Assembly: GCF_964019385.1 (NCBI RefSeq)
Contig: NC_088645.1
Span: 22,139,711-22,203,710 of the forward strand
Source of the DNA: Sycon ciliatum
Lineage: Eukaryota; Porifera; Calcarea; Leucosolenida; Sycettidae
Length of the DNA: 64,000 nt
Direction of reading: 5' to 3'
Shown: one piece after another, positions 2,440-61,200 of the stretch
Numbering within the stretch: position 1 is the first letter of the stretch
How the letters are laid out: each line of letters begins with the position of its first letter
The notes under the pieces: generated by a model
What the model was told of the DNA's origin: nothing
What the model saw: the letters and a program-made list of their open reading frames with translations, nothing else
Databases searched by the model: none
Program-made: the position numbers and the translations under genes

Positions 2440-9724
<7,285 letters not shown>

Positions 9725-10193
9725 GGAGCCTTCTTGCACCCAGGAGGACTAGAAACAGTGGGAACAGCCTTTGGGACGTCTCCAATTCTAGGTTTCTGAC
9801 AGTATGTGGTCTAAATTCAGCGGCAGGCCGTGTGCCTATTTGGCTCGACAAGAGCAATGTTGGTGCCAGTGCGAAATGTTCCACCACAAGAAAAGTATGT
9901 ACGCCAGCTCCTGGAGTAATGGCCCAATCTGCGGAGGTGCTTCTCTCTCCGCGGCAAGCAGCCAAGAAGGCCCGTCATTCATCAAAACATTGAACAATTT
10001 TTTATCGACAGACACCAAGCAAGTGGTACACTGCACTGACTGGCTGTACAAAAGTGTAGCCGAAGCAAGCATGGGTAAATCTACCCGCGTACTATCATGT
10101 ACGGTGTGTGGTCTGGTCAGTCACTACAAATGACAAGTCAGTGCAGTACACGCACACTGTACCTTGCATGCATGCATGCAGTGAGCTTGCAAC

Positions 10194-10231
10194 CAGGGAG
10201 TCGTAAAATACTTTACGACTCCCAGTCCCTG
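10194..10231. mobile_element. hAT-like micro-hairpin element 1 (38 bp)
   Basis: A palindrome CAGGGAGTCGTAAAATAC... ending TCCCTG is flanked by the exact 8-bp repeat CTTGCAAC (10186-10193, 10232-10239). CAGGG ends with an 8-bp target duplication are typical of hAT transposons. Confidence 0.85.
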
Positions 10232-10611
10232 CTTGCAACACGACCTCATGTGATGCATCGATGATGCAGATGCACCCACATGCACAGTCTAGTGTGTGGC
10301 ATGGTGGTCCCATGTGTGTTCTGCAGCATGGAGTGGAAATCTCGAAGTGTGAGCTTCATCAGTTTCATGCATGTTCCGGTACTAGACGTGTGTAGCTGTG
10401 TTGCGGGCAGTGTGCTATCAGAAAAACCACTCTGTGGCCAGGGTGGGTGCATCCAGCCAGGCCAGTCGGAGATATGAGACAGTGAGAGAGTCACCTGGTC
10501 ACCCAGCTGCCAACTCACTGCTCAGGCCAGTATCAGGTCAGGCCTCTCTGACCGGTCCAGCAGCAGGAAGTCGTCAACAATTTTTACATGATCATGTGAC
10601 ACAGTCGTGTA

Positions 10612-10904
10612 CTGTAAAGTGAGAAACTTTCGCTAGAGATTAAATTTCGCGACCATCACACATTCGCGAATATACATCGCCGCAAACCTCTCCATACATT
10701 GATTGTTGTAGACAGTACAAAATCCGACTGTAGTAGTAGTAGTAGAATTTATTATTTTGATAGGGAAGGCCCTACAGACGTTGCCGTCTTGTTACAGGGA
10801 ACCCTAAGACTGAAGAGATAGAATCGCAAACGTTTCTCGTCGTGAACCAGCCCGATTTATGAAAACGCTAAATTTGCACGCCGCGAAAGTTTGTCGCTTT
10901 ACAG
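10612..10904. mobile_element. MITE, CTGTAAAG type, with a nested repeat
   Basis: Ends are CTGTAAAGTGAG and CGCTTTACAG, each flanked by TA. Inside, 10727-10806 is a (GTA)n-headed segment (ATTTATTAT..AGGGAAGG..CCCTACAGAC) that recurs at 47216-47492 and 57858-57943. Confidence 0.75.
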
Positions 10905-12087
10905 TACATGCATGTCGTGTACAGCCTACAGGATTGGTATGTGTATCATTTTGGCATATCTGGTGGCAAGCGTCACATTCATGTACATGTGTATAGCAGC
11001 ATTCCTGCTGGTACATGCATGTTGTTGTTGTTGTTGTTGCTGTTACTTTATTTTACTTCACCAGAATTACAGGCAGTAGAATGCCTTCTCACTAGACCAG
11101 GTCTAGTTCTCATGTACATGTACATGTACCACGGTCATTAGAATAGGGTTGCCAATAAATGAGTTTGTGCATCAGTAGGGTCCGGCGGATTCTGCCGGCA
11201 GAAAAATTGGCAGAATCCGGTACTTTTTCTGGTAAGTTTCATGCATGTTTGGTATGTGGATAAAGAAATGGAGCAGAATTCGATGAATTGCCCGCCATAA
11301 AAATAAGGTTTGTATGGTTCTGCCAATTTCACTGCTTTTCGAGCAGAATCTACCACCTTTTCGAGCATAATCCGCCGGTCCCTATGCATCAGTGCATGCA
11401 TCTTCACATCCATGACTACACGTGACTCACTCGGGCCATACATTCGTTGGCATCTGCAGCATGGCCGGAGCATCCGGGCCTATGAAAGCAATTTTGTTAA
11501 TAACAGCTGATCCAATGTTACATTGTATGTCATGACATGTGTTCAGTCCTGAATCAAACCCTTGCCATTTACATGTACATGTACATGTATGCACAACATC
11601 AGCGGCTTGAGCAGCGCAGAAGGGGGATATAGCATTGTGTTATAGGGTGATCAATGGCTCCGTGGCAGGGGAATTTCCCTAGCATTATTCGATGTAAGAC
11701 CATCATTGTCATATGAGCAGTTTGAATATAGCCGGTGTTTACATGTTCTGTGGGAGACAATGCTGTCTTTAAGATTGATGTTTTAGGTACGAAAGACCGA
11801 TGAGTGCACGGTTGTCATGAAACTCTGATTTACAACCCGCGTTATAGCCTTTCTGTCCTGTGTCTACTGTTTGACTATGGTGTGTTTAGGTACATAGGAT
11901 CTGTGCCTTGCTTTGTCAAAGTGCACGGTGTATGAGGTAGGACGGCTTGCCCTGCAAAGCCGGCATCATGTTATGCATGGTGATTTGAAGGTACATCCAT
12001 GCGGCATTATTATACTCTTACACCATTGGGTATGACATTTTGTCCTACATCACTCGCGGGCTTGCTTGCCAGTGCTGCATTCCAGTA

Positions 12088-14229
12088 CTAGAGATGCCAG
12101 CCATGTCGGGATACGATCCAGGCGTCGTCGGCAACAGACCCGTCCTCGTTCCGAACGTACTGCACGCGCAGGTGCGTGCCGTTGGCAACGTGAACGCGAG
12201 CGTAGCCGTAGTCGATGCCACGGTGACGGCTCCACGGGTGGGCATCCCAGCGATCAAAGTCCTGACTCGCGCCGCCCGTTCCCACTAGTAGGTGCACGGT
12301 TGCTTCGGCCATGCCCGATATTAAGCTCTGTCGGCATGTCCCATTGTACACCGGGCACGTCCGCTCGTAGGCATGGTAGTGCCCTCCGAAGAACACGTCG
12401 ACGCCGTATCGGTACAGGACATCTTCGTACGCCGCTCGCTGGTGTAGCTGGACAATGTAGTTATCCTTGGCGGTGATTTCGTCGACGGAGCGGCTGCAGT
12501 ACATGGGTCGATGGCCCATGACGAACACCCACGGCGTGCGCGTGCGGTTGACGGCGTCCAAGTCGGCGACCAGGAACTTGTGCATGTCACTGCCGGGGTA
12601 GAAGTCGTGCTCCGTCGACAGCCACACGACGTGAATCAGACCGTGGTCGTGCGAGTACCAGAACGGCTGCAGGCTCTGCGCCGCCGTCGACGGCATGCTG
12701 AAGCGGCTCACGATCGGAGCAGCGCACTCGCCACCAGAGTCGTCGCCGTACACGCCCCAGGAGGGGTGGTACCCCTGGTCTGGGGCACCGCTGGGATCCC
12801 GCGTTCCCCCGGCCACATGATCGTAATCATGGTTACCAATACCCACGTAATACGGTATCCTGGTGGCCACGCTCTGGATCAAGTCACCAAACTGCTCCCA
12901 CTTGTAGCCGCGGCCTTCCGCATAGGATATATCACCAACATGCAGGACAAAGTGAAACTGCTGTGGGCTCTTGAAAAGGTCATCTTCAATGCGAGAAATG
13001 GTCGTGTACGATCTATTCGCCGATGGTGTTCCAGTGGGACCCCGTTGCTCGCCCAGATCGCCAAATACGAAGAAGCTGATCGCCTGGTTGCTTCCAACAT
13101 CAGGTGGAGTTGTGAACTGATACAACGGGGACCAAGTTATTGTTTCCTCTTCTGCTGCTGCCGACACGATGCCAGTCGTGCCAGCGCCGAATCGATATTC
13201 GTACTCGGTGTTGGCTGCAAGGTTGCGGAGCACAACCCGATGTATGTATCCTGGATGCCGGAAGAGCAGAGACCCGGTGATGTTGGCGGGATGATTGCAC
13301 ATATCCGAGGCTGTGTACGTGTGCGAGGTTCCCGAGGCAGTTATGATGTGCTCGCTCTCCTCCGACGTCACTCGCCGGTACTCCACAAGCGATGGCTTGA
13401 CCGCCTGCGCCACCCACATGATGCTCATTTCACCGGGGATGCCCGTTTCGGAAACGCGTCCTTGTGTCGGCTGGTTGCTGCCCTGCCGAAACGAGACCGC
13501 GATGCTGGCAAGCGTTGCCACGTAGGAGCCATTCGTGCACTGGTGCAAGTAGCGGAACGCGTACTCGCACCGCATGTTAACCAGCGGGCCAAACTGTACC
13601 GTTCCAATGCTGGCGTTCACCTCGCGGTAACGTTAGTCCAGGTAGTCAGCATCGCGTGCATCGTGCGGACAATACACCGCTATGACATCGCCAACCGGCG
13701 GAAACAAGTTACTATCGGTCACGTCATGTTTCTTATGTAAGTTACGATGCTGCAATGGTCCACAGGGATCCGCGCTCGTAGCTGGGTTGGAAACATTTGG
13801 ACGTTTCCACCCGCTGACTGTAACAGAGTCACCCACGTCGATCTTCTGCTTGTCCACGATCAACGAACCGTGCGTCCCGAGGCCGCTGGTTATCTCCCCG
13901 CCATCAAGAACTGGTTGTGATGGTCGCTGGATGAAAGACAACGGCGGCGAGCTTGCTGCGCTGTGAGTGGCACCTGCCCCACCACGCCATTCTGCTGTTC
14001 CGGCTTCCTTCCTCCTGTTGCCTATCGGTGTCGCCGCCGATCTGGAGCGCAGGGTGTCGATCAGGGCCTTTGCGGCCTTGGCGATTTGCAGCTGTCCACC
14101 CAAATCTTCCACAATAACATGACCTCTGCTGCTCGGGCCGGTCACCGGAGCAACTGTCCGTGCGCTGGAATAGCTGGCCAAGTGCACCAGTGCTGCAAGA
14201 AGAAAAGGACCGAGGGACCATGCGGACAT
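12088..14229 (-). CDS. Purple acid phosphatase (metallophosphoesterase), left paralogue, with one in-frame stop
   Basis: This is a single-exon frame of 713 codon positions, from ATG at 14229 to TAG at 12088-12090, interrupted only by TAA at 13633-13635 (codon 199). A signal-peptide-like start (MSAWSLGPFLLAALVHLAS) suggests secretion or a lysosome-like compartment. After the stop the same frame continues with a beta-sandwich region and then every metal-ligand motif of purple acid phosphatases in order: GDLG, GDISY, GNHD, VMGHRP and GHYHAYER. Family knowledge: a dinuclear Fe-Fe or Fe-Zn/Mn centre hydrolyses phosphate esters at acid pH. The length and motif spacing resemble the long plant-type PAPs rather than the shorter animal ACP7. 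It is closely similar to the paralogue at 15400-17334, which has no stop at the matching place. The stop may be an assembly error, a null allele or a young pseudogene; the long intact frame on both sides argues against an old one. Confidence 0.85.
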
Positions 14230-15399
14230 CTCTCCAGCTCGTTTTTTTTGTATCTGCCAAAATGATAGCGCTAGCGAGACTCGAGTATGTGCGGAGTATC
14301 GCGGTTTTTCTCGATCAATTGACCAAAACTTGCAAAAGTAATCCTGGGTCGCTGTCTTTTGCTATTGCTTATTCATTGTTGAGTGCTGCGTGGTATGTAA
14401 TGGTGCTGCTGTCACCATGATGACCTGGCTCATGATCACAAACTCGTTGCGGACAGTCGTGCTATGGCATTACACTGCCATTGCCATTGGTAGCAGGGCA
14501 ACTAATGACAGTAGTAATGTAACGTTGTGAACATTCGCTTTGCCCATATTATTTTTTAGCAGTTTGGCGTGGATGAAAAATCCGACTATCGGAACCAGGG
14601 CCTAGGGAGTGGTCGTCAAGTAACCGTGTGGTTAGTTCCATCCCAGGCCGAGTCAACCTGAGGACGAATGTCTGTTCTGGTCTGAGCAGTTCAGACTGCT
14701 GGCAGTGCGCCTTGCTCAGTTGCTGTGTTGTGTTTTGGAGCGAAGGCCACACACAACAACAGCAGACAGTCAGTGCAGTGCAGGCCTTCAACGCCAACGG
14801 TTGTGTCATGTGTGTGCCTTGGCCACTGACTTCGCGATCATCCGATCAGTGCGATCACGTGCCTTTAATTATTTTCGCAACCTGTATCTGGGTCACATGA
14901 CAAAATCGAATCACACACGAAAATAATGTATCATGGAATCACGAGACATGAGAGTGAGCTCGTTTCAAGTGAACAGAAACTTGAGAAAGGCGTCGCTTCA
15001 ACAAGCGACCTGCTTGGCTATGCTGTCTAGACGCTAGCATGTTCCAGTTGTCTTTTTGCAATTTTGGAACTGTCTTATTTGGGGGATTGCAGTAGGTGTG
15101 TCGTTCAATCAGTATAACATCGCCTGCATGGGCTAAAGCCCCTTTCAGTCTCAGCGTGGCCGATTGCCTCGCATCACCCGACACGGTTGAATAACTCTCT
15201 GCTACACATTTTGTTGAGCGAGAATCTTCACTTGTTGGGCAATTATTGCTAATTTTTAGAATCAAGCTGCGTGAACAAGTTAAATTTTCTAAACGCCTCA
15301 CAATCCGGCTGTACTGTCGAAAGCCTAGCGGGACTCGAAACGGATTATTGGCGCAACAAACAGACATACACGAGGACTTTGCTGGCAGGAAACAGCAGA
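14230..15399. promoter_or_regulatory. Putative shared promoter interval between head-to-head phosphatase genes
   Basis: The two purple acid phosphatase genes start about 1.17 kb apart and point away from each other, so both promoters must lie here if their transcripts begin near their ATGs. I see no convincing TATA box and no other gene. The assignment rests on arrangement alone. Confidence 0.4.
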
Positions 15400-17334
15400 A
15401 TGACGAGGGGATCATTCATGGGAGGAACTCTGCCACCGTTGAAGGCAGTAGGCAGCCTGGTGACGGTTTTGTGCATCGGGCTTCAGCTGCAATACCACAT
15501 GACCCAGGCTACTGCACCGCATGGTACGCACTGGAAAGCGGGCGCTGGCGTGTGGCACCCGCACGAGGAGGCCATGCCCACTCTGCTGCGGCCCGGCGCT
15601 AGGCAACTGCGCGCCGGGCAAGCGGAGATCATGACGGTGGAGCCGAGCGTTCTGGAGGTGCGTGATTACATCACTGTTAACTGGCCGAAGAAAAAGATGG
15701 AGTCGCTGCTGCCGACGTCGCCACACATCGAGGGAAGTCCCCACGGTGACATCATCGCTGCGTATTGTCCCGAAACAGCCGCCGACGGGGATTACGTCGA
15801 CTACCTGAGCGTTCCGAAAGAGGAGACGTCGGTGAAGTTTGGCCCGGTGGTGAACATGCGGTGTCGGTACCAGTTTCGCTACCTGCGCGCCCTGCTGAAC
15901 AAGTCGTACGAGGCGTACGCTCAGAGTCCGCCGGTGGGCTTTGCGGCCGGGAGCAGCCAGCCGACGCAGGGACGCCTGTCGGAGACCGGCGTCGTCGGCG
16001 AGATGAACGTCATGTGGGTGTCGGACCTCAACAACATGTCCGTCGTGCAGTACGTACTCAACTCCAGCCGCCACGGTGATGTCATGAAAGCCAACAATTA
16101 TGTCATGAATGCCACAGGCAAGGCACACACGTACGCGGCCAGCGATCTGTGCAACGCGCCGGCAAACGAGGTGGCGGCGCTGAAGTTCCGCGACCCAGGC
16201 TTCATACACCGTGTGCGCCTCATGGGTCTGTCGTCGGCCACACGCTACTCGTATCGCTACGGCAGCGACGGCCACTGGTCCGACTGGTTCTCGTTCACGA
16301 CTCAGCCGGCACCGGGCAGCGCCGAGCCCGTCAACTTCTTCGTGTTTGGCGACCTGGGCGAGTGGCGCGATGCGGCTGGCCCTCCACCAGGAGATCGCGC
16401 CTACACCACCATGTCTCGCATTGAAGAGGACTTAAAGAGCATGCCAGCGGCGGGACGCAACTTCAATCTGCTGCTGCATGTCGGCGACATCTCGTATGCG
16501 CGGGGTGCGGCGTACCAGTGGGAGCAGTTTGGCGATCTGGTACAGCGCGTTGCCACGCAGATCCCCTACTATGTCGGCATTGGCAACCACGAGTACGATC
16601 ACGAGGCCGGCGGCGAAAATGATCCGAGCCATGCGGACGGCAATGGTTATCATCCGTCGTGGGGCAACTACGGCACGGACTCCGCAGGGGAGTGCGCTGT
16701 TCCCGTCGTGAACCGCTTCAGCATGCCGTCGACGGCGGCGCAGAGCCTGCAGCCGTTCTGGTACTCGCACGACTACGGTCTGATTCACGTTGTCTGGCTG
16801 TCGACCGAGCACGACTTCTACCCCAGCAGTGACATGTACAAGTTCCTGGTCGCCGACTTGGCTACGGTCAACCGCACGCGCACACCGTGGGTGTTCGTCA
16901 TGGGCCATCGACCCATGTACTGCAGTCGCGTGGCGTCCGCCAACTACATCATCCAGGTTCACCAGCGCGAGGCCTACGAGGACGCGCTGTACCGTTTCGG
17001 CGTCGACGTCTTCTGGTCGGGTCACTACCACTCGTACGAGCGCACCTGCGCCGTGTATAAGGAGAAGTGCGCCAAGACGGCGAGCGGCGGGCCGGCGGCC
17101 ACCGTTCACATCATGGTGGGCATGGCCGGTGCCAGCCACGACCAGCCCGACTGGCAGCCGTCCACCTGGGCCGAGAGCCACTACGTCGACTACGGCTACA
17201 ACCGCGTGACCGTCGCGAACGCCACCCACCTGCTCAGCGAGTACGTGGAGAACGAGAGCGGCAAGGTCAAGGACAGCGTCTGGATCGTCTCCGACCACCG
17301 CTGGCACGCCGAAGCCGCCAAGCAATGGGCGTAA
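15400..17334 (+). CDS. Purple acid phosphatase (metallophosphoesterase), right paralogue, intact
   Basis: This is a single-exon gene ending at TAA 17332-17334. The frame is open further upstream, but the first ATGs are at 15400 (MTRGSFMGG) and 15418 (MGGTLPPLKAVG); either gives a hydrophobic signal-like segment, about 638-644 residues in all. The metal-binding set is complete and in order: FGDLGEW, GDISYARG, GIGNHEYDH, VFVMGHRPMYC and GHYHSYERTC. An N-terminal beta-sandwich region precedes the catalytic domain, as in long plant-type PAPs. Several N-x-S/T sites fit a secreted or lysosomal glycoprotein. It is the inverted neighbour and close paralogue of the gene at 12088-14229. Coding GC is clearly higher than in the flanking DNA. 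The exact start and localisation are inferred; the enzyme family is secure. Confidence 0.92.
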   Translation: MTRGSFMGGTLPPLKAVGSLVTVLCIGLQLQYHMTQATAPHGTHWKAGAGVWHPHEEAMPTLLRPGARQLRAGQAEIMTVEPSVLEVRDYITVNWPKKKMESLLPTSPHIEGSPHGDIIAAYCPETAADGDYVDYLSVPKEETSVKFGPVVNMRCRYQFRYLRALLNKSYEAYAQSPPVGFAAGSSQPTQGRLSETGVVGEMNVMWVSDLNNMSVVQYVLNSSRHGDVMKANNYVMNATGKAHTYAASDLCNAPANEVAALKFRDPGFIHRVRLMGLSSATRYSYRYGSDGHWSDWFSFTTQPAPGSAEPVNFFVFGDLGEWRDAAGPPPGDRAYTTMSRIEEDLKSMPAAGRNFNLLLHVGDISYARGAAYQWEQFGDLVQRVATQIPYYVGIGNHEYDHEAGGENDPSHADGNGYHPSWGNYGTDSAGECAVPVVNRFSMPSTAAQSLQPFWYSHDYGLIHVVWLSTEHDFYPSSDMYKFLVADLATVNRTRTPWVFVMGHRPMYCSRVASANYIIQVHQREAYEDALYRFGVDVFWSGHYHSYERTCAVYKEKCAKTASGGPAATVHIMVGMAGASHDQPDWQPSTWAESHYVDYGYNRVTVANATHLLSEYVENESGKVKDSVWIVSDHRWHAEAAKQWA

Positions 17335-18169
17335 ACGTAAACGGTGTTGTTGTATTCTTTTATTGTGCTTCGCTGTGGGCACAGGTAATGCTGCATTCTC
17401 ATCGGAGGGTGAAACCTCCGCCGATTCCTGCCAAGAACGAAAAGAAAAAAGGTAAACTCGAAAGAACTGGGCCATCGATAGTCTCAAGAACAATTTCCAG
17501 TTTGTCAAGCTATAAACAGCGTCGTAATCATTATGAGCTTTTGATATTTAACACCCTCCCCTTTTTTCTGCTTCTGCTTCTTATTATGATTATAATGTTA
17601 TTCTTGTTTACTGGTACATGTATCTTGTCTAGGAGCATTTTGTACTTAGGTTTTAGTTGCCGATAGCCTTTCAAACGCTGTCTAGGGAAGCCCGTCTGCT
17701 TTTTTGTGTCGCCTTTAGCTCTGTCCACCTTTCTGTTGCGGTGTATGTATTGCACACTCTGTCTTGCTGCGACGCACTCTGGGTTGGCGAGACTCTCACA
17801 GCTTCCCTGCTGTTGTCATTCCACTGAATCCGTGGAAATTAATATTCAAATTATCTATTTGTATTACTCTGAATCACATTATTTGGAGAAGGAACGATGC
17901 ACGCTTATCTCCTTGTATCGACAGGCTCTTCGGACCAAAATGAAGATGGCATCAAGAAATCATTTTATTCCTTGATTATTAAATTTTCACGCTGAAGAAG
18001 TACAGTATTTTGTTGGCCGGTGAAGCTAGTAGAAATAACAGTTCTTTGTTCGTCGTGATGAATTGAGCTGTGTACTCCTCAAGTTGCAATGGCAATACTG
18101 TAATGCTCGGTGCGCCAAATAACTGCCTGTACTCGTTAGCTATGATCATATCAACACAATAATCATGTA

Positions 18170-18386
18170 CTGTAAAACGGGTAACTATTGCGACGTAAAC
18201 ATGTTTGCGAATTTTGCGAGAGGCCCCGAATCGCAAACTTTGAACAACGCAAACTCGCGCCATGTAAAGTTCAGTGCAAGGACTGGCTCGACTGTGTAGA
18301 ACGACTCGCAAACATTAAACAGCGCAAACCAGTCTCAATTTGTAAAACGCAAACATTTATTGTCGCAAATGTTACCCGTTTTGCAG
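18170..18386. mobile_element. MITE, CTGTAAAACGGGTAAC type
   Basis: Ends are CTGTAAAACGGGTAAC and GTTACCCGTTTTGCAG, flanked by TA. It has no ORF of note. Confidence 0.75.
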
Positions 18387-18499
18387 TACTTGTGCTCATA
18401 CCTCAGTTTGCCGGCACAGACGTTATTACGCCCGGGCACTTCGGCCTACCGGACACCCTTGGGGCGAGGTTTAGTGGAAATAGTTATTTTGTATGGAAA

Positions 18500-18870
18500 T
18501 AGTGACGTAACATGTCCTTCTTCTCTTTGGAAAAAAATGAAAAAACCAAAAAGTAGGGATTCACTGGCCAGAAAAAGCCACTTCATAGCTGTGTAGTGTA
18601 GACCAGGCTGAATAGTGGCTTCAGCCTTGCAAGCTGTTGAATGGTGCAATCCCACCACAAGTTGCTATGGCTTCTGCTGTAGCACCGCTATCATAACCTC
18701 TGGCGATGGGCGTCAAATGGTGTGTGTGTGTGTGTGCGTGTGTGTATGTGTGTGCGTGCATGTGTGTGTGTGTGTGTGTGAAAGTTGCTATGTCTAACAT
18801 AGCTGTTCACTATCATCGCTCCCGCGATGGGTATGTCTGAGGTCTGAGGTGTGTGTGTGTGATTGTAATG
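18500..18870 (+). mobile_element. 5'-truncated SINE with TG tail
   Basis: The body and tail match 49433-49600 (ACTGGCCAGAAAAAGCCAC, GCAAGCTGTTGAATGGTGC, GGCGATGGGCGTCAAATGG), followed by (TG)n. A second tail unit (AGTTGCTATGTC ... GTCTGAGGTCTGAGG) and more TG come next. Confidence 0.75.
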
Positions 18871-19160
18871 GAGTGCAGGTGCATGGATTCAGCTCCATTC
18901 AACCCTTGTTTGTTAGAAACAGTAAATAAATTAAAATAAAAAAATTAAATAATGGCCAGAACCTGACCCAATAGTGCACTACTAGTGGCAGGGCCCCACC
19001 TGATAGCGTGCATGGTACCCGTTTCACCACTATGCAAAGTCCATGCTTTGGCCGCACCACACCCACATGCACACCTCAGACCTCAGACCTGCCCATCGCG
19101 GAAGCGATGATAGCGAACAGCCATGTTAGACATAGCAGCTTGTACACCCCCCCCCCCCAC

Positions 19161-19232
<72 letters not shown>

Positions 19233-19900
19233 AAACAGCCTCCCCCCCACACACACACATACAGGCTACTGTACTAATGTGACACAGCTGAGCACCACCA
19301 GCAAGGCAGGTCAATTTTAAAACAGATTCGAAAAGAGAGAAGAAGAAAGAAAGGTAGCATGATTGTTGATTTTCTGCTCTCCGAATAAAATTGGATGAAA
19401 ACCTTTTGTATTTAGCACAGCAAGTATGTTTCTTTCATAGCTCTGATATGATGGATAAAAAAAAAGTGAATATTAAAAGAAGAACTGCTTGCAGTTTACG
19501 TACAAGCACAGCATGAGGGTTCTAAATCAAGCTAGTGCAATGTCATGTACATGTATTAAACCAGGTTAGATCCTGAACACAGTGACTAGTGTCATGTATG
19601 CACCAGGCTGGATACTGGGCGCCGTGGGAACACGAAACGCATCAAATCACAGCAGCACAGTGATACAATTGATATAGTCTTTATGAAACGGAGGACCCAA
19701 TGTGCGCTGCCTTTCACAACCAACGCAGTAAGACGTGATTGGTGATCTCTGCGCTGGCCTATACGGACCAAAACACTAAGACACACACCAGACACGATGA
19801 TGATCTCTGTGCTGGCCTACGCGAGCTAGCACACTAAGACGCACGCGCACGCATGTGCGTGTGCAACATGGGCACAAGCGCTTGCTGTGGATGAGCACCA

Positions 19901-20070
19901 GTGGCCGGGTCATGTGACACTGAAACCAGTCCTCCCGGCGGGTCATGTGACACTGCAACCAGTCCTCCCGGCGGGTCATGTGACACTGAAACCAGTCCTC
20001 TCGGCGGGTCATGTGACACTGCAACCAGTCCTACCAGCGGGTCATGTGACGCTGAAACCAGTCCTCCTAG
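19901..20070. repeat. 33-bp tandem repeat, about 5 copies
   Basis: The unit contains GGGTCATGTGACACTG and AACCAGTCCTCCCGGC. Alternate units differ at one site (GAAACC/GCAACC), suggesting a 66-bp higher-order period. It lies about 180 bp beyond the ARIP4-like stop codon. Each unit has TCATGTGA. Confidence 0.85.
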
Positions 20071-20250
20071 CAACAAACATGCGAACATGCGTAGAGCGGT
20101 TGCGATCTAGGGAATCTCCCAGCCATCCTAGTCCAATCGCGTAGCAGTGGATGCACTAGGTAGCATAGCTGACCTCCTAGCAACAGACATGCGAACACAC
20201 ACGGGAGCGCGGTAACGATCTAGAGAATCTCCAGGCCATCCTGGCCCACC

Positions 20251-53560
<33,310 letters not shown>

Positions 53561-53611
53561 AAAAAATGGAAAAATGATGGGCATGTCTGAGGTCTGAGGT
53601 GTGTGTGTGTG

Positions 53612-54150
53612 CCAGCTAGTTCGGTTGGTGGGTACACTTATGCCGGATAGTGTTGGGTATGTTGCCAACGGGCTCGGCTGCTTGAAGGTGTAATGTTGTA
53701 CCTACCACCTTTGTTGGTTTCAGGGTTCATATACTTTCTATTTGAAGTATATATGTACATACCTGTTAACCATGGACTACTTCTGGCTAGATTAACTCTT
53801 GTGTAATCATGGTGCTAGTGAAGCTTGTGTCAGATCCACTCTGATTTAGCCACCCACACTAGTAGCAAGTATTACCTTCACTGGGGGCAGGGGTAACTGC
53901 AGTTGGATCCCGGGACGGATACCCTGATGCCGTCAATCCTTTTTCTGCACCGTGTCCTCACCCACTTACTGAGGTGTGGTGAGCCCATAAGTGGGATCAT
54001 TTTCAAGTCCACCCAGAGTTTTGGGGAATTCAGGGGGTGTCGGCCGTTGTGCGGTTCAATAGCCAATTGAGTCATCTTTCCAAGATTCCTTTTGAGTCTC
54101 TCTACCCTCTCCCGGGGAGACCCACGTGACCAGTTTTGGCAGTGAGCAAC
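53612..54150 (-). repeat. Dispersed 540-bp repeat, copy 2
   Basis: This is the reverse-oriented partner of 5985-6525, lying between two TG tracts. The junction AGCTAGTTCGGTTGGTGGGT at its far end directly meets a short TG run. Confidence 0.7.
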
Positions 54151-54156
54151 AAGTAC

Positions 54157-54885
<729 letters not shown>

Positions 54886-54990
54886 TGGTGCAATCCCAGC
54901 ACAAGTTAGTTGCTATGGCTTCTGCAGTAGCTGAGTGTAGCATCGCTATCATCACCTCCGGCGATGGGCGTCAAATGGGGGGGGGGGGGG
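54886..54990 (+). repeat. SINE/LINE tail unit after a TG tract
   Basis: GGTGCAATCCCAGCACAAG, TATCATCACCTCCGGCGATG and GGCGTCAAATGG then a G-run. It is a tail-only copy. Confidence 0.65.
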
Positions 54991-55019
54991 GGTGGAAGCA
55001 ACAACGTGCTTGGCGACGT

Positions 55020-57215
55020 CACTGATCTTCGCTTAACAATGCACACCTGCGGCTGGCCTACTCTATGGCAACAGGTGAAGCAACAAACTGTCTCCACAAA
55101 GCCAAGCAAGCGCACACTACCAGTATCCGCCGATAGATAGGAAAATGTGCCCTTTCCAACCGACAATGGTGGACAACCGTCAAGCGAGCAGGTGGGCAAG
55201 GATACCGCTCTGCAGACATACCTGTTCTGCGTGCGTCGAACGGAACTGAGCACACCACGTGCAGCGAAAAGGCCGAAGTATTCGGGCAGTACCTCTCCGC
55301 AAAGTGCAGTCTTGGTGACAACGACTTGCAAGCCAACAGCCTCCCTCCAGTCCGCCCCCGATCTGAACCTCAACTCAGCAATGTCCACTTTCGGCCAAGC
55401 ACCGTTGAGCGGAAGCTGAGGCAACTCCAGCCCGCCAAAGCCACGGGTCCAGACGACATCCCCGGGCATGTACTCCGGCAATGCAGCAAAGAGCTGGCTG
55501 TACCAGTAACAGTGTCGCGGCTCTTTTCGCAGGCCTTCCACCAAGGTCGGCAACCTACAATGTGGAAGACGGCAATGGATGTGCCGGTGCACAAGAAAAA
55601 ATCCAAGTCTGATGTTAAGAACTACCGCCCGATCTCCCTCCTCTCTCTTCTGTCGAATGTCATGGAGGTCATTATCAACCACTCAATCCGACAGTTCCTG
55701 GAGGCACACAACAGCTTATCGAAAAGTCAGCATGGCTTCCGCAGCCAACTCGGCACGCAGGACATACTCACGCTACTCAACTACCAATGGAGTCGCGTTG
55801 TGTGGTTACAGTCATTGCAGTTGATGTGGCTGGCGCATTCGACCGCGTCTCTCATGTAGGCGTTTTGCACAAGGCACAATGCTATGGTGTAACTGGTCCA
55901 CTTCTCGCTTGGCTGAGGGATTACCTGACTGATCGTCACTTGAGGGTTGCGGTTGGAGGTGAACTTTCCAGTCCGTACCCGACCAAAGCTGGCGTGCCGG
56001 CGGGCAGTATCCTTGGTCCCACCCTGTTCATCCTCTACACCAATGATGGCGAGGACCACCTCCCACCAGGTATGGAGCTAGCAGCCTACGCTGACGATAC
56101 CACTCTCTTCCACTGCCTCACAACAAGAGCTGACATCGATTGTGGCTCCGAGCTCCTCCAGCAGGGCATTGATGCGTTTTCCCGTTGGGGACGTAAGTTG
56201 ATAAAATTAATATGGTGGTAAAGACACACCTGGCAATATGGCGGTAAACACACGCCTGCCCACACACGCTCTCTAAGCTGCAAAGTTCTAGCACAGAGCT
56301 CTCCTTCTCACCACCACCACCATCAGTTCGCGCCTGGCGCCTAGTCGATGCATGGTTGGCCTAGTCGATGCATGGTTGGGGACGTAAGTGGAGGATCAAA
56401 TTTGAGCCCTCCAAGACGCAGGCTATGTCTATAGGCCACCATCGCCAGCCCTGGGAGCTCCCTCGAGCACCATTTGATGGCACACCGGTTAGTGAAGAGA
56501 GTCGGCTGAAACTCCTGGGAGTCACCTTCGACGATACCCTGAGCTACTCCTTCCACCTCCGCTCCCTAGCTTCCCGTGCTAACCAGCGCATGGGCTTCCT
56601 TAAGCGAGCGTCTCCCATTCTGGACGCCGAGAGCCGCCACCGCGTCTACAACGGCTTTGTTCGACCCACACCCTCCACATCATCGGAGCAGGTACTTGGC
56701 TCCCTAGCCTGGCACTCCGTCGCCTGGTAGCTGCGCTTGCCTATGCCTATAAGCTCTCCTATCTGGATGCATCCAGCCCTCTGAAGCAGATGCTGCCCAA
56801 ACCAGCCACTCACGGTGCCCCGAGACAAGACCTGCCCGTCACTCTCTCCAGCCGCAGGATTTCCCATCCATACCAGATGACAACTGGCCTGCATGCCAAC
56901 ACCCGGAATAGCTGCCTCCAAGGATTCCCTGCTTGCACCGTTGCAACGTGGAATGCCCTGCTCCACCACCCACCCGCCCAGCCCCACATCATGCAAAGCT
57001 TCAAGGAAAAGGTGTACCGTCACCGTCTTCCTCAGGACTGGCTCTCTGCTACTGATGCACTTCGAATCTGCTCGCCAACGCTTTCCCTGTTCTTGTTAGT
57101 GTTCAGTTGCTTACCTTATAACCCTGCTGCCATCATCACCAATATTCTGATTCTCATGCACATGTCCCAGAACCTGCTATCCTTCGCAGTCCCCATCACC
57201 AAGAGAACTGTGCTC
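55020..57215 (+). pseudogene. Non-LTR retrotransposon reverse transcriptase (Jockey/CR1-like), decayed
   Basis: Frames together cover much of a reverse transcriptase: KATGPDDIPGHVL, KNYRPISLLSLLSNVMEVI, SQHGFRSQLGTQDIL, VDVAGAFDRVSH, GVPAGSILGPTLFILYTND, AAYADDTTLF (catalytic YADD), SKTQAMSIG, LKLLGVTFDD and SFKEKVYRHRL near the end. The motif set fits the Jockey superfamily. The frame is broken by at least one shift near 55790-55800, more upstream of 55300 and near 56670, and by a 176-bp insertion at 56199-56374. A (CT)n tract follows at 57227. The endonuclease part is not seen, so the copy is 5'-truncated and dead. Confidence 0.85.
56199..56374 (-). mobile_element. Short retroposon inserted in the LINE, 15-bp target duplication
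   Basis: GTTGGGGACGTAAGT lies on both sides (56184-56198, 56375-56389). In the joined flanks the reverse transcriptase frame passes through the site without a break. A second insertion of the same sequence is at 47258-47451. On the minus strand both share the 3' end (CCACCATATT plus an A/T-rich stretch) but differ at the 5' end, as expected for 5'-truncated retroposition. Confidence 0.8.
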
Positions 57216-57226
57216 TTCTATCTCCC

Positions 57227-57381
<155 letters not shown>

Positions 57382-57857
57382 TCGCTTTTCGTCCCTCTCA
57401 AGTGTGTGTACTAGGCTCTGCACCTTGGTGTATTGAGCACTCTCTCACGAACAACCACAACTCCCTCCGAGTTTAAATGTACCACATGTACTGGCAACCT
57501 TTTTTCTTTTTTTCTTTTTTTGCAATGATCACAGCTCACAGGCAAGGACAAAAAATTGCATAGTGGAGCATAGTGATGGTGGGGCTTTTTGCTCTCAGCC
57601 GACCTGAGGTCTCGACATCATGGGGACATAAAACGCACCAAAAAGAAAGAAAAAATGATGAAAATGATAAAAAAAATATCAATGGACTGGGTATGGGTCA
57701 CAAGGGTATACCAATTGCAAAAATTTTAGATGGCAGGCAGCTCATTGCAAATGAGATAGTACCGGCAATGTTTATGCGAATCACGGTGGCGTCAGGCATT
57801 TCTAAGGTACACTGATGCCGCCAGTGCACGCTTAAAGTGATTTGAAAAGCAGCAGAA

Positions 57858-57943
57858 ATAGTATAGTATAGCATTTATTCATATTTCTCTAGGGCAGTGC
57901 CCACAGACCTATGGTCTCCTTACGGGTTACCCTAGCCAATCTA
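57858..57943 (+). repeat. ATTTATT..AGGG..CCCACAGAC repeat
   Basis: GCATTTATTCATATTTCTCT, AGTGCCCACAGACC and TACGGGTTACCCTA recall 10733-10806 and 47216-47492, each preceded by (GTA)n- or (TAG)n-like DNA. It is of unknown class. Confidence 0.5.
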
Positions 57944-58070
57944 GGATTGCGATACGAAATAATTGAAATGTGTATTTTATAGAAATTGAAATGTGTATTT
58001 TATAGAAATTGAAATGTGTATTTTATAGCGGACCCGAGCCCGAGTCCCAAACTACTTCAACTATAGACTA

Positions 58071-58213
58071 CATGTGCTGGCCAAAGAAATCCAACCTCAT
58101 GAATAAAATAGCGTTGCCGGGCGCTACCCAGCCCTAGCACTACACATACTGGTCTGTGCACTCGAACGCAACGCTACTTTATTCATGAGGTTGGATTTCT
58201 CAGGCCAGCACTG
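58071..58213. mobile_element. 143-bp MITE related to the 142-bp family by ends and size
   Basis: Ends are CATGTGCTGGCC and GGCCAGCACTG, TA-flanked, with long near-perfect arms (AAATCCAACCTCATGAAT). The interior differs from the four copies above. It lies about 80 bp beyond the fucosidase stop codon. Confidence 0.7.
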
Positions 58214-58294
58214 TACATGACAGACATTATGAGGGGAAATGGTCCTGACTCCTGAATCAAACTGTGCGGCCGCTGATTACCAAAGCCTCCCTGC

Positions 58295-61200
58295 TTACAA
58301 ATGGCCGGCGGAATTGCCAGTGACCGCGTCGCCAGTCAGCGAGTTCTGAAGCCGAATAGTGTACGCGTACTGTGTCGGGAAGCTCTTCTTGTCCAGGGCA
58401 AGACCAGCGGTTGGCATGCTGATGTTGATGCCGGTTCCGCTCGTCCAGCACTGCACGCCGAGCGTGACGGGCCCATTACCGGTCAGCAATGATGCGGTGG
58501 TCGTACCAGCCGAGCACGGCGGATTGGCAAGCTGTGCGGTGCCCGTCTGGGTAGGCCAGGACATCAGTATGGCATACAGGTCCACAGTGGAAGCGTCATC
58601 GTCGTCCACCGCAGTAGCAGCCGGTGTTCCTGCCGTGCTCAATGTCTTGGTTGTGTAGTACACCAGGACTTCGTCCGTTGAGCTGTTCTCAGCCTGCTTG
58701 ACCTTCCATGGCTGTGTGCCGTAGATAGCGTCGCCGTTGACCTTCAGCCAGGAGCCAATCTACAGTGTGTATACAAACACACACACATACACACCCACAC
58801 ACCCATTGACACATGGTCCAAAGTCACCGAGGAAGACTTCCTAGCGAACGTACATTCATAGTGATGATTTACAAATGGTGGCATGTAATTGTTGTAGTGG
58901 CTGGCTATGCAACTCTGTTGTTGTTGCTGTGTTGTACGGGTGGAGCACCAAGACGCTCGGTGTATTTGTCTCCTACAATATGTTTTCGGCCAAAATACAG
59001 TTCCGCTCACTGGAATCCGACCCAAAGTGCAAAACTGACGCCCTGGACCTGTTGCGATGACATCACTGTACTTGCACACGAGCACGTCAAACAGCTTTCG
59101 TACCACTTCTAGGGCGCCAAGGGCCGTGCAATTTGGGGACTCCCAATATGCACTGTGGGTCGGATTTCACAACTGTGTAGCAAGTGTTCTCAGTACCCAC
59201 CAGAGAGTAGTAAAATACCGGTGTTTTACTACTCCCTGGTACTGTACCCACTAACCTGGAGCAAGCGCTCGGCCATGAGCGGGATGATGATACCGTCGTG
59301 AGTGGGACCAATATTCAGAATCAGGTTACCTGGAACAACACATCACAGCACAGTCATTACAACACAGAATATAATTACAGTGAAACCTCGTTAAGAAGAA
59401 CACTGATAAAACAAACTTTCGCTTAAAAGAAGAACTAGTATTGCTACCGCCCCCCTCCCCGAGTCCATATTGGCCTATATTCTCTGGCCACGGGAAGGTG
59501 AAGTAAATAAATAAATAAATTTGTAACTCTATTGGATAAATCACTGTGTATTCACTGGGTATAAGATATGGATAAGAAGAACTCCCGTTACTAAGTTGCG
59601 AACAAATCGTGTCGGTCCCTTGGTGTTCGTCCTAAAGAGGTTTGACTGTATGCTGTTCCCGGAATGCCACATGTGGGGTCTATCACAGTAACCTACAACT
59701 TGTAATTCATTTTTTAAGTGTCAATTCTCGTACACAGCACCAGGGAGTCGTAAAATACCGGTATTTTACGACTCCCTGCACAGCACAAACAAGTGTGGTA
59801 GAGGGGACGGCTCGATACCGGGACGTTTTGACAGCCAAATTTGTATAGACCCAAACCGATCATCAGCGTTGATTTTTCACTCGAAATATGTTTGTGGAAG
59901 GAAACTGGCATGTTGAAGTTTGCTCTGGGGCCAGAGTCAATCGAACTGAGCCACTCCTTTGTGTTGACCCATTGCCTCCAAGTTGCCCAATTTTTCTCTT
60001 CAAAAAAGTTCAAATCAGAGGTGGCTCCAAACCGGACACGTTTTAGAGTGCACGTCAAATTCACTCTGGGTCTGAAATTTGGTAATTGCTATCGCTCCAC
60101 GACGGCCAGTACAGAGTAACAATAAGCCTTGTGTGTGTTTCCATTAGTTTTGATTGGTATGCGGTGCTTTATTGGCGAGAGGCGAGCCGCTGTTTACCTG
60201 CGACAAGAAGTTGATTTTTCGAAAGTCGTAAAACTCAAGTCGCAGTGCGAAGCAACACGTCAAAAACTCACCTGCTTGATATGGCGCTTCTGGTCATCGC
60301 AGAGCCATGAAATTTTGGCTCGGAGTATAACACATCGTAGTCTCACTGTGACATATGTTTTCTAATCAAAATACCAAGAGAGAAAGTGAATATTGAGTCC
60401 GTTCCGGTTTGCAACCGGTGTCCTATTTGAAACCGTCTCCTCTACCCCATATTGCTACTTAGTCACTCCTCACAGGCAGATATAGTACAGTGCTGCTCTA
60501 TGAAACCCAGTCACGTCACTCAAGTATGCGCCTTGCATCATTCCGCAGCCCAGTGTTCGCAGGTTTATGGCTGTGCAACCGGCCCGGCGCGTACTAGAGT
60601 GATGCGACTGGATTTCATTGAGCAACACTGTAGCTACAAAACCAGACTGTGTGCTAGAATTACCGGTAGGTACGTCTTGAGTACCAGGCTTGTATTCAGA
60701 ATACGCTTCTAGACAAGACACGGGGGCGTCGGACACGGTATGGTCACCACGGTATTGACCGCACCACTTTTGCCCCAGGTACCCTGTGGATCAATAAAAC
60801 ACACTGATCTGGGCTCTAAAATTAATTATTTACAAATGTTGGCTCAGGACCCCCCTCCCCCACGAGTAACTTGTACTTCAGACAGCTGACCGTACCACAC
60901 TAAAATGACTTCCGATGCCCCTGCGGCAGATTTCTAGTTCCAGGCCCGGCGGAACCAGTCTGGTTGGTCAGGCCATGGCCGGACCAACTTTTTGGCCGCC
61001 AACTTATGTTTACAGGCTGCTGAGGAGGTCATGTGTCTACCGTCCATATCATACACAAAGTGTATGAAAGGCTAGGGTATGGTCGGACCAATCAATAACT
61101 GCTTCCGCCGGTCCTGCGTTCTATACCGGGGAGAGTACGGCACTTGCTACCTGATGATCATGAGACCATTGAACTCTGGGTGAACGCTGCCTGATGATCA

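Follow-up and report, generated by a model that had tools for sequence, protein, structure and literature searches.

The 64,000-bp stretch of Sycon ciliatum contig NC_088645.1 analyzed here (positions 22,139,711 to 22,203,710; hereafter the window) contains five members of a family of very short, palindromic mobile DNA units, which we call micro-elements. Many units of this family are insertions that carry 8-bp target site duplications, have a hAT-like target preference in common, and share their outer terminal inverted repeats (TIRs) with longer elements. In our reading, this hAT-like family has been cut down to terminal repeats that adjoin one another, and it forms a new size class within a known kind of element. 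The reading that we prefer, with modest confidence, is that non-autonomous hAT-like cut-and-paste elements shrank to two TIRs of about 19 bp lying back to back, and that these remnants then spread in their own right. The view of the first-pass annotation of the window, that the units are little more than two fused terminal repeats, is supported. Such units place hAT-type insertions far below the size predicted by the known biochemistry of hAT ends, a matter that can be tested with the thousands of copies in the genome. Their interest is high because characterized hAT transposases need longer, asymmetric ends.

The five window elements are listed below; no strand is assigned to any of them.

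10194..10231, no strand: E1, 38 bp, TIR subtype C9/A13, with the 8-bp repeat CTTGCAAC at 10186-10193 and 10232-10239; the center is 6 bp short and 6 additional bp (AGTCCC) lie close to the right end.
28185..28232, no strand: E2, 48 bp, TIR subtype C9/C13, with the 8-bp repeat GTCAAGAG at 28177-28184 and 28233-28240; 9 additional bp lie within the left half and the right arm is 1 bp short.
40988..41019, no strand: E3, 32 bp, TIR subtype A9, with the 8-bp repeat GTATCAAG at 40980-40987 and 41020-41027.
59201..59238, no strand: E4, 38 bp, TIR subtype A9/A13, with a single change per arm and the 5' repeat GTACCCAC at 59193-59200.
59239..59251, no strand: 3' flank of E4, consisting of GTACT (5 extra bases) and the second copy of GTACCCAC at 59244-59251.
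59741..59778, no strand: E5, 38 bp, a perfect palindrome of TIR subtype C9/A13, with the 8-bp repeat CACAGCAC at 59733-59740 and 59779-59786.

All five sites named in the first-pass annotation are present, and they vary in palindromy. E5 is perfect, E3 and E4 are near-perfect, and E1 and E2 are interrupted by insertions and deletions. The annotation also assigned a different, exact 8-bp repeat to every site. Such repeats, all different, directly abut the CAGGGAG...CCCTG ends of four elements (E1, E2, E3, and E5); at E4, GTACT precedes the 3' copy. The fourth element had been extended to 59243; it stops at 59238, and the last 5 bp are not counted as part of it.

The duplications exceed chance, as had been claimed. 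With tandem arrays excluded and 10,054 bases masked, an exact 8/8 repeat at spacings of 32, 38, and 48 bp occurs at 16 of 146,969 window positions. Of the CARRG...CYYTG pairs at distances of 20-1500 bp in the window, 102 are masked and 1,283 are not. Four of the unmasked pairs are flanked by an 8/8 repeat, none by a 7/8 repeat, and eight by a 6/8 repeat; the four are E1, E2, E3, and E5, all members of the family. A palindrome scan blind to the TIR sequence, for which E2 is too irregular, returned 12 palindromes from the window. Flanking repeats of at least 7 bp were found at four of these, all of the CAGGGAG type, and at none of the eight others. CAGGG-type ends are a general hAT motif. In the five targets, nine of the ten defined positions of nTnnnnAn match, for which the chance probability is about 1.5e-5 to 2.8e-5. 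When the right arms were dealt anew among the elements, 2 of 120 arrangements fitted as well as the real one, and in single-stranded folding each element did better than all 200 of its shuffles. A search of the window against Rfam gave no matches.

The family is abundant in the genome searched (538,412,230 bp in 313 contigs, with the window on contig C3). The end CAGGGAGTNGTA has 18,361 copies (9,157 + 9,204), compared with 431 (199 and 232) for a control in which the letters of the end were reversed. The genome-wide search for short palindromes that the first-pass annotation proposed was made as a search for two exact 12-bp ends with 0-30 bp between them, a pattern that admits only units of 24-54 bp. 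It returned 2,950 pairs and none with the reversed control; therefore about one third of the exact ends sit in such pairs. The exact paired pattern was not found in viral contigs. Its lone match in bacterial and archaeal genomes, a 46-bp palindrome in Hymenobacter (L001:1270-1315) with the same 12-bp ends, has no 8-bp repeat and was set aside as unrelated.

Flanks were obtained for all of the first 50 pairs listed among the 2,950; these lie on contig C1 between 0.17 and 9.8 Mb and form the sample referred to below. Forty-eight are 26-49 bp long and two are 51 and 53 bp. The 8-bp duplication is exact in 26 and matches at 7/8 or better in 36, and mismatched flanks used as a control match at 8 positions in 1/2000 trials and at 7 in 8/2000. 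The annotation had taken copies lacking the duplication as evidence against insertion, and on that count 36 units keep it at 7/8 or better and 14 do not. Adjoining exact repeats of 9-14 bp are absent (0/50), and no length but 8 stands out. The shortest unit with an exact duplication is 26 bp, and by size exact duplications are found in 1/1 of the 26-bp, 3/4 of the 27-bp, and 1/3 of the 28-bp units. The targets of the 26 exact duplications have T at position 2 in 22 cases and A at position 7 in 23. Together with the 8-bp duplications and the abundance of hAT domains described below, this bears out the hAT-like character first assigned to the insertions. The upstream flank is common to L065 and L066, and another to L015 and L029; these are probably copies made by segmental duplication. 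In an initial 200 kb of sequence, selected for containing the end, there are 17 close pairs no longer than 80 bp when each end may have one mismatch; five of them have an 8/8 and five a 7/8 duplication.

The arms of the micro-elements are 12-19 bp long, and the variable part is the center, where bases are deleted (26-37 bp units) or added between the arms (39-53 bp units). The perfect 38-bp palindrome of E5 occurs in 435 identical copies in the genome, and 27-mers number 343. Nine exact 38-mers in the sample lie in nine distinct flanks, with duplications of 8/8 in six, 7/8 in two, and 4/8 in one. Position 9 has the same base in both arms in 46 of the 50 sampled units, and position 13 in 35 of the 36 units of at least 34 bp; 20,000 shuffles of the right arms gave at most 37 and 28 agreements, respectively. 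All four combinations of A and C at the two positions are present. This mirrored variation fits several parental TIR subtypes, each yielding symmetric derivatives.

Longer elements with the same ends were found. The L119 element is 2,148 bp long, with perfect 32-bp TIRs (CAGGGAGTCGTAAAATACCGGGAGGCGACACG) and the duplication GTGCTGAG; it has no stop-to-stop frame longer than 166 amino acids and no transposase frame. L021:4103-5295 is 1,193 bp long, with the duplication ATGTACAG and inverted ends of more than 100 bp that differ at one of the first 100 bp. The first 13-21 bp of the TIRs of these relatives are identical to micro-element arms, and both kinds have 8-bp duplications; the relatives differ from the micro-elements in being long and in having TIRs of 32 bp (L119) and more than 100 bp (L021). 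When the outermost 21 bp of the two L119 ends are overlapped at CCGG, the result is the 38-mer. It is well supported that the 38-mer has the sequence that would be expected from loss of the interior of such an element, with joining at the CCGG of both TIRs. A 57-mer in L011, with the duplication ACCATAAT, joins a segment of about 43 bp from the right end of the 2,148-bp type to one of about 8 bp from the left, and the right arms of the 41-mers of L065 and L066 match the L021 end over its first 21 bp. Because the 38-mer and 57-mer match the one type and the L065 and L066 arms the other, the micro-elements are, judged by sequence likeness, related to several kinds of longer element. A 430-bp candidate parent (L020:4528-4957) was rejected; it looks like a 37-38-bp micro-element with another repeat, AGGGACC...GGTCCCT, inside it.

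The sizes look two-peaked. Twelve CAGGGAGT pairs with exact 8-bp repeats were found in 264 kb (20 TIR-targeted regions and the window), an undercount, as the filters of the scan missed E2, E4, and E5. Nine span 28-57 bp and the others 430, 837, and 1,193 bp, leaving the range 58-429 bp empty; the inner TIRs of the 837-bp pair, in L024, are unlike each other, and that pair may be spurious. In the first 100 of 2,176 rows of a listing of the 19-bp arm, 20 exact 38-mers compare with 4 opposed pairs 2.1-2.6 kb apart (our own reading of the rows, with one pair checked).

According to the reading that we prefer, a longer element would have lost its interior when its terminal repeats were joined to each other, with natural joining points at the CCGG overlap for the 38-mer and at a shared TAC for the 27-mer. 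A hAT transposase acting in trans would then have copied the 38-mer itself to new sites, with the two 38-mer ends probably held in a complex that touches little beyond the TIR, or paired with the ends of another element. The forms of 26-37 and 39-53 bp may have arisen mainly by deletions and small insertions at the unstable center of the palindrome. Spread at micro size is proposed because there are 435 identical 38-mers, because the nine sampled copies lie in different flanks, because the range 58-429 bp is empty, and because the arm listing has 20 exact 38-mers to 4 long pairs. With a shade more doubt than trust, we also propose mobility for the 26-38-bp palindromes in their own right: a hAT transposase would excise and reinsert two 12-19-bp ends with almost nothing between them. 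If so, they are the smallest cut-and-paste elements known to us, and synapsis of some kind beyond a single stiff 38-bp rod is implied, for example by pairing of ends that belong to separate molecules or by use of a hairpin or cruciform substrate. The confidences expressed here and below attach to readings that overlap in part.

A profile search of the genome for the hAT dimerization domain (PF05699) gave 150 scored matches among 422 candidates, many of the matches in open frames of 598-966 amino acids. Several are equal in score and frame length (for example, at 673 and 966 amino acids) and are probably copies of one another, which suggests recent hAT activity in the genome. In the window, no hAT domain was found by Pfam in the nine open reading frames searched, and a crude search for a hAT C-terminal motif in its 804 stop-to-stop open reading frames found none.

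Several results weigh against shrinkage followed by spread. The first-pass annotation envisaged a hAT transposase gene with matching ends; the domains were found, but exact TACNACTCCCTG is absent from the 900 bp on the downstream side of the 20 hAT domains inspected among the 150 scored matches. It occurs there with one mismatch at one domain (L097) and with two mismatches at L095 and L104. Two other copies of the L097 gene lack the one-mismatch end. A hAT gene at C3:20803282 (660-amino-acid frame) was rejected as the owner of a 3' CAGGAAGTCGTA end: the end is absent from the stretch fetched at two other copies, and no recurrence of the flank was seen on the 5' side. The published end requirements are also adverse: ends of about 100-200 bp are required in Tol2, Tag1, and Ac, Hermes needs long ends as well, and Hermes has little activity with two left ends and none with two right ends (PMC10368747). 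Some of the units themselves look individually made: four with a 7-base center of one type have four different fillers, the junction of the 27-mers is the same in several TIR subtypes, and the 57-mer is lopsided, with about 43 bp from the right and about 8 bp from the left. Of the 14 sampled units below 7/8, two have an exact 7-bp repeat and 12 a decayed repeat or none. A further 20 stretches of 301 bp, each surrounding a listed end (L030-L049), fit less well: with two mismatches allowed, six contain a partner no more than 250 bp away, and none of the six reaches 7/8; the other 14 have no partner, ends of longer elements among them. Because these stretches mostly lack a partner and none reaches 7/8, many ends are decayed, solitary, or within something longer.

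Some of the same features would be expected if the units had never moved at micro size. Long hAT elements would have inserted with 8-bp duplications and later lost their interiors in place, by interrupted gap repair or by microhomology joining of the two terminal repeats, leaving the fused ends behind. This account, which we consider possible but on the whole unlikely, does not need the ends of a 26-38-bp DNA to be paired. It agrees with the diversity of the centers (the four seven-base centers searched all differ), with the L011 57-mer, in which the deletion of an element of the 2,148-bp type can be seen, and with the 27-mers, since 47 of the 50 listed of 343 have the core expected from joining at the shared TAC, in several TIR subtypes. 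Random deletion, however, should give many intermediates, and among the 12 exact-repeat pairs none is 58-429 bp long. The 435 identical 38-mers would require hundreds of identical deletions, though the CCGG overlap could make them recur.

Loss of the interior during transposition itself is still less probable. The complex would protect about 19 bp at each end, the interior would be lost, the ends would be integrated 8 bp apart, and their inner sides would be joined, sometimes with filler. This would account jointly for the exact duplications, the diverse centers, and the gap in sizes, and in many sampled units of at least 37 bp the arm does persist on each side as far as about AATACC, with little else in the middle. 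Against such a by-product, the boundary at about 19 bp may only reflect how far the parental repeats are alike, and the 27-mers retain less on one side.

Other superfamilies also make 8-bp duplications, among them P, Merlin, and Zisupton, and the inspection of 20 hAT domains tied no transposase to the micro-element ends. A maker from outside the hAT superfamily is nonetheless very improbable in view of the nTnnnnAn preference, the CAGGG ends (compare CAG(G/A)GGTAGGC of the Mar element), and the many hAT domains in open frames. That the units are ordinary palindromes, whether regulatory sites or chance, is refuted for practical purposes by the 2,950 pairs against none in the control and by the site-specific 8-bp duplications, even though the Hymenobacter match shows that such a palindrome can arise without a flanking duplication.

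In comparison with known hAT elements, 8-bp duplications are present at 7/8 or better in 36 of the 50 sampled pairs and directly abut four of the five window elements, and the window and the flank sample both show the nTnnnnAn preference of the Ac/Hermes type, which is documented for Hermes (PMC10368747). The TIRs of hAT elements are short, 5-27 bp (PMC3517528, PMC10741241); the 12-19-bp arms fall in this range, which is exceeded by L119 (32 bp) and L021 (more than 100 bp). Subterminal transposase-binding repeats are absent, as 26-53 bp leaves no room for them. The transposases of Ac and Tag1 bind subterminal motifs and not their own TIRs (PMC3143072). Subterminal repeats are a feature of characterized full elements, and the lack of them says more about mobility than about origin. 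Hermes and other hATs resemble the micro-elements in their 8-bp duplications at nTnnnnAn and in their short TIRs (17 bp in Hermes). Hermes, Tol2, Tag1, and Ac differ in needing long ends, asymmetric in Hermes, whereas the micro-elements have about 19 symmetric bp per end and no subterminal room.

As in miniature inverted-repeat transposable elements (MITEs), the units are non-coding, with TIRs, duplications, and a high copy number (2,950 copies with exact ends). Descent from a longer related element is indicated by the 21 bp shared with L119 and by the 57-mer, about 43 bp of which correspond to its right end. The usual MITE length of 50-800 bp is not reached by 48 of the first 50 listed, though the pattern was restricted to 24-54 bp. 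Mar, a hAT MITE of Drosophila, is 610 bp long, with 11-bp TIRs (CAG(G/A)GGTAGGC) and 8-bp duplications (PMC3517528). Like Mar, the micro-elements are non-coding, have TIRs starting with CAG and 8-bp duplications, and presumably depend on a transposase acting in trans; unlike Mar, they are more than 10 times shorter, have almost no DNA between the repeats, and insert at nTnnnnAn rather than nnnTAnnn. No elements of micro size were found in the available parts of PMC12550479 and PMC10741241. No title or abstract reporting hAT elements shorter than 60 bp was found either, which is weak evidence of novelty, as the subscription literature was mostly uncovered. Micro-elements may be common elsewhere and yet unannotated, because MITE Tracker, a widely cited finder, starts at 50 nt by default (range 50-800 nt; PMC6171319).

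The window itself holds a hAT-like MITE of ordinary size, 209 bp long (11176-11384), with the TIR TAGGGWCCGGCGGATTMTG, the exact 8-bp duplication TGCATCAG, and internal GCAGAATCCG-like repeats. It shares an 8-bp duplication and a short TIR with the micro-elements and differs from them in its size, in the sequence of its TIR, and in its internal repeats.

Other repeats in the window have different ends. A second family, with CAAGAGTA ends, includes a 266-bp element at 8703-8968 with perfect long TIRs, flanked on both sides by ATATCAT (a 7-bp repeat), and a 48-bp element at 51871-51918, flanked on both sides by CTAGCAT (also 7 bp); this family, too, may have undergone reduction to micro size. 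A 30-bp palindrome, CAAGAGTCCATAAC-GG-GTTATGGACTCTTG, lies within 51310-51367, and its arm occurs once more 28 bp upstream; TCTAC stands on both sides, and there is no exact adjacent duplication. At 37864-39143 is a tandem array of about 28 copies of a 46-bp unit, which can be read as the 8 bp GTCCAGGA followed by 38 bp with CAGTG...CACTG ends; the array may represent a short element amplified together with its duplication, or the likeness could be due to chance. Two 870-bp foldbacks (1500-2374 and 7144-8016) have arms of about 400 bp and ends, TTAAAGGGG...CCCCTTTAA, that differ from those of the micro-elements and suggest TTAA as their target. A 67-bp stretch at 26512-26578 has ATCGCGAT on both sides and imperfect RAACAGGAC inverted ends. 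Compact inverted repeats, their arms about 30 bp long or longer, lie at 3767-3843 and 58089-58196; their apparent inner 6-bp duplications belong to the arms. An unbroken (TG) array of 506 units occupies 51986-52997. Two purple acid phosphatase genes are present on opposite strands (12088-13632 and 15253-17334), and the closest of the listed relatives that bear names belong to scattered groups, namely oomycetes, rotifers, and one with a diatom-like name.

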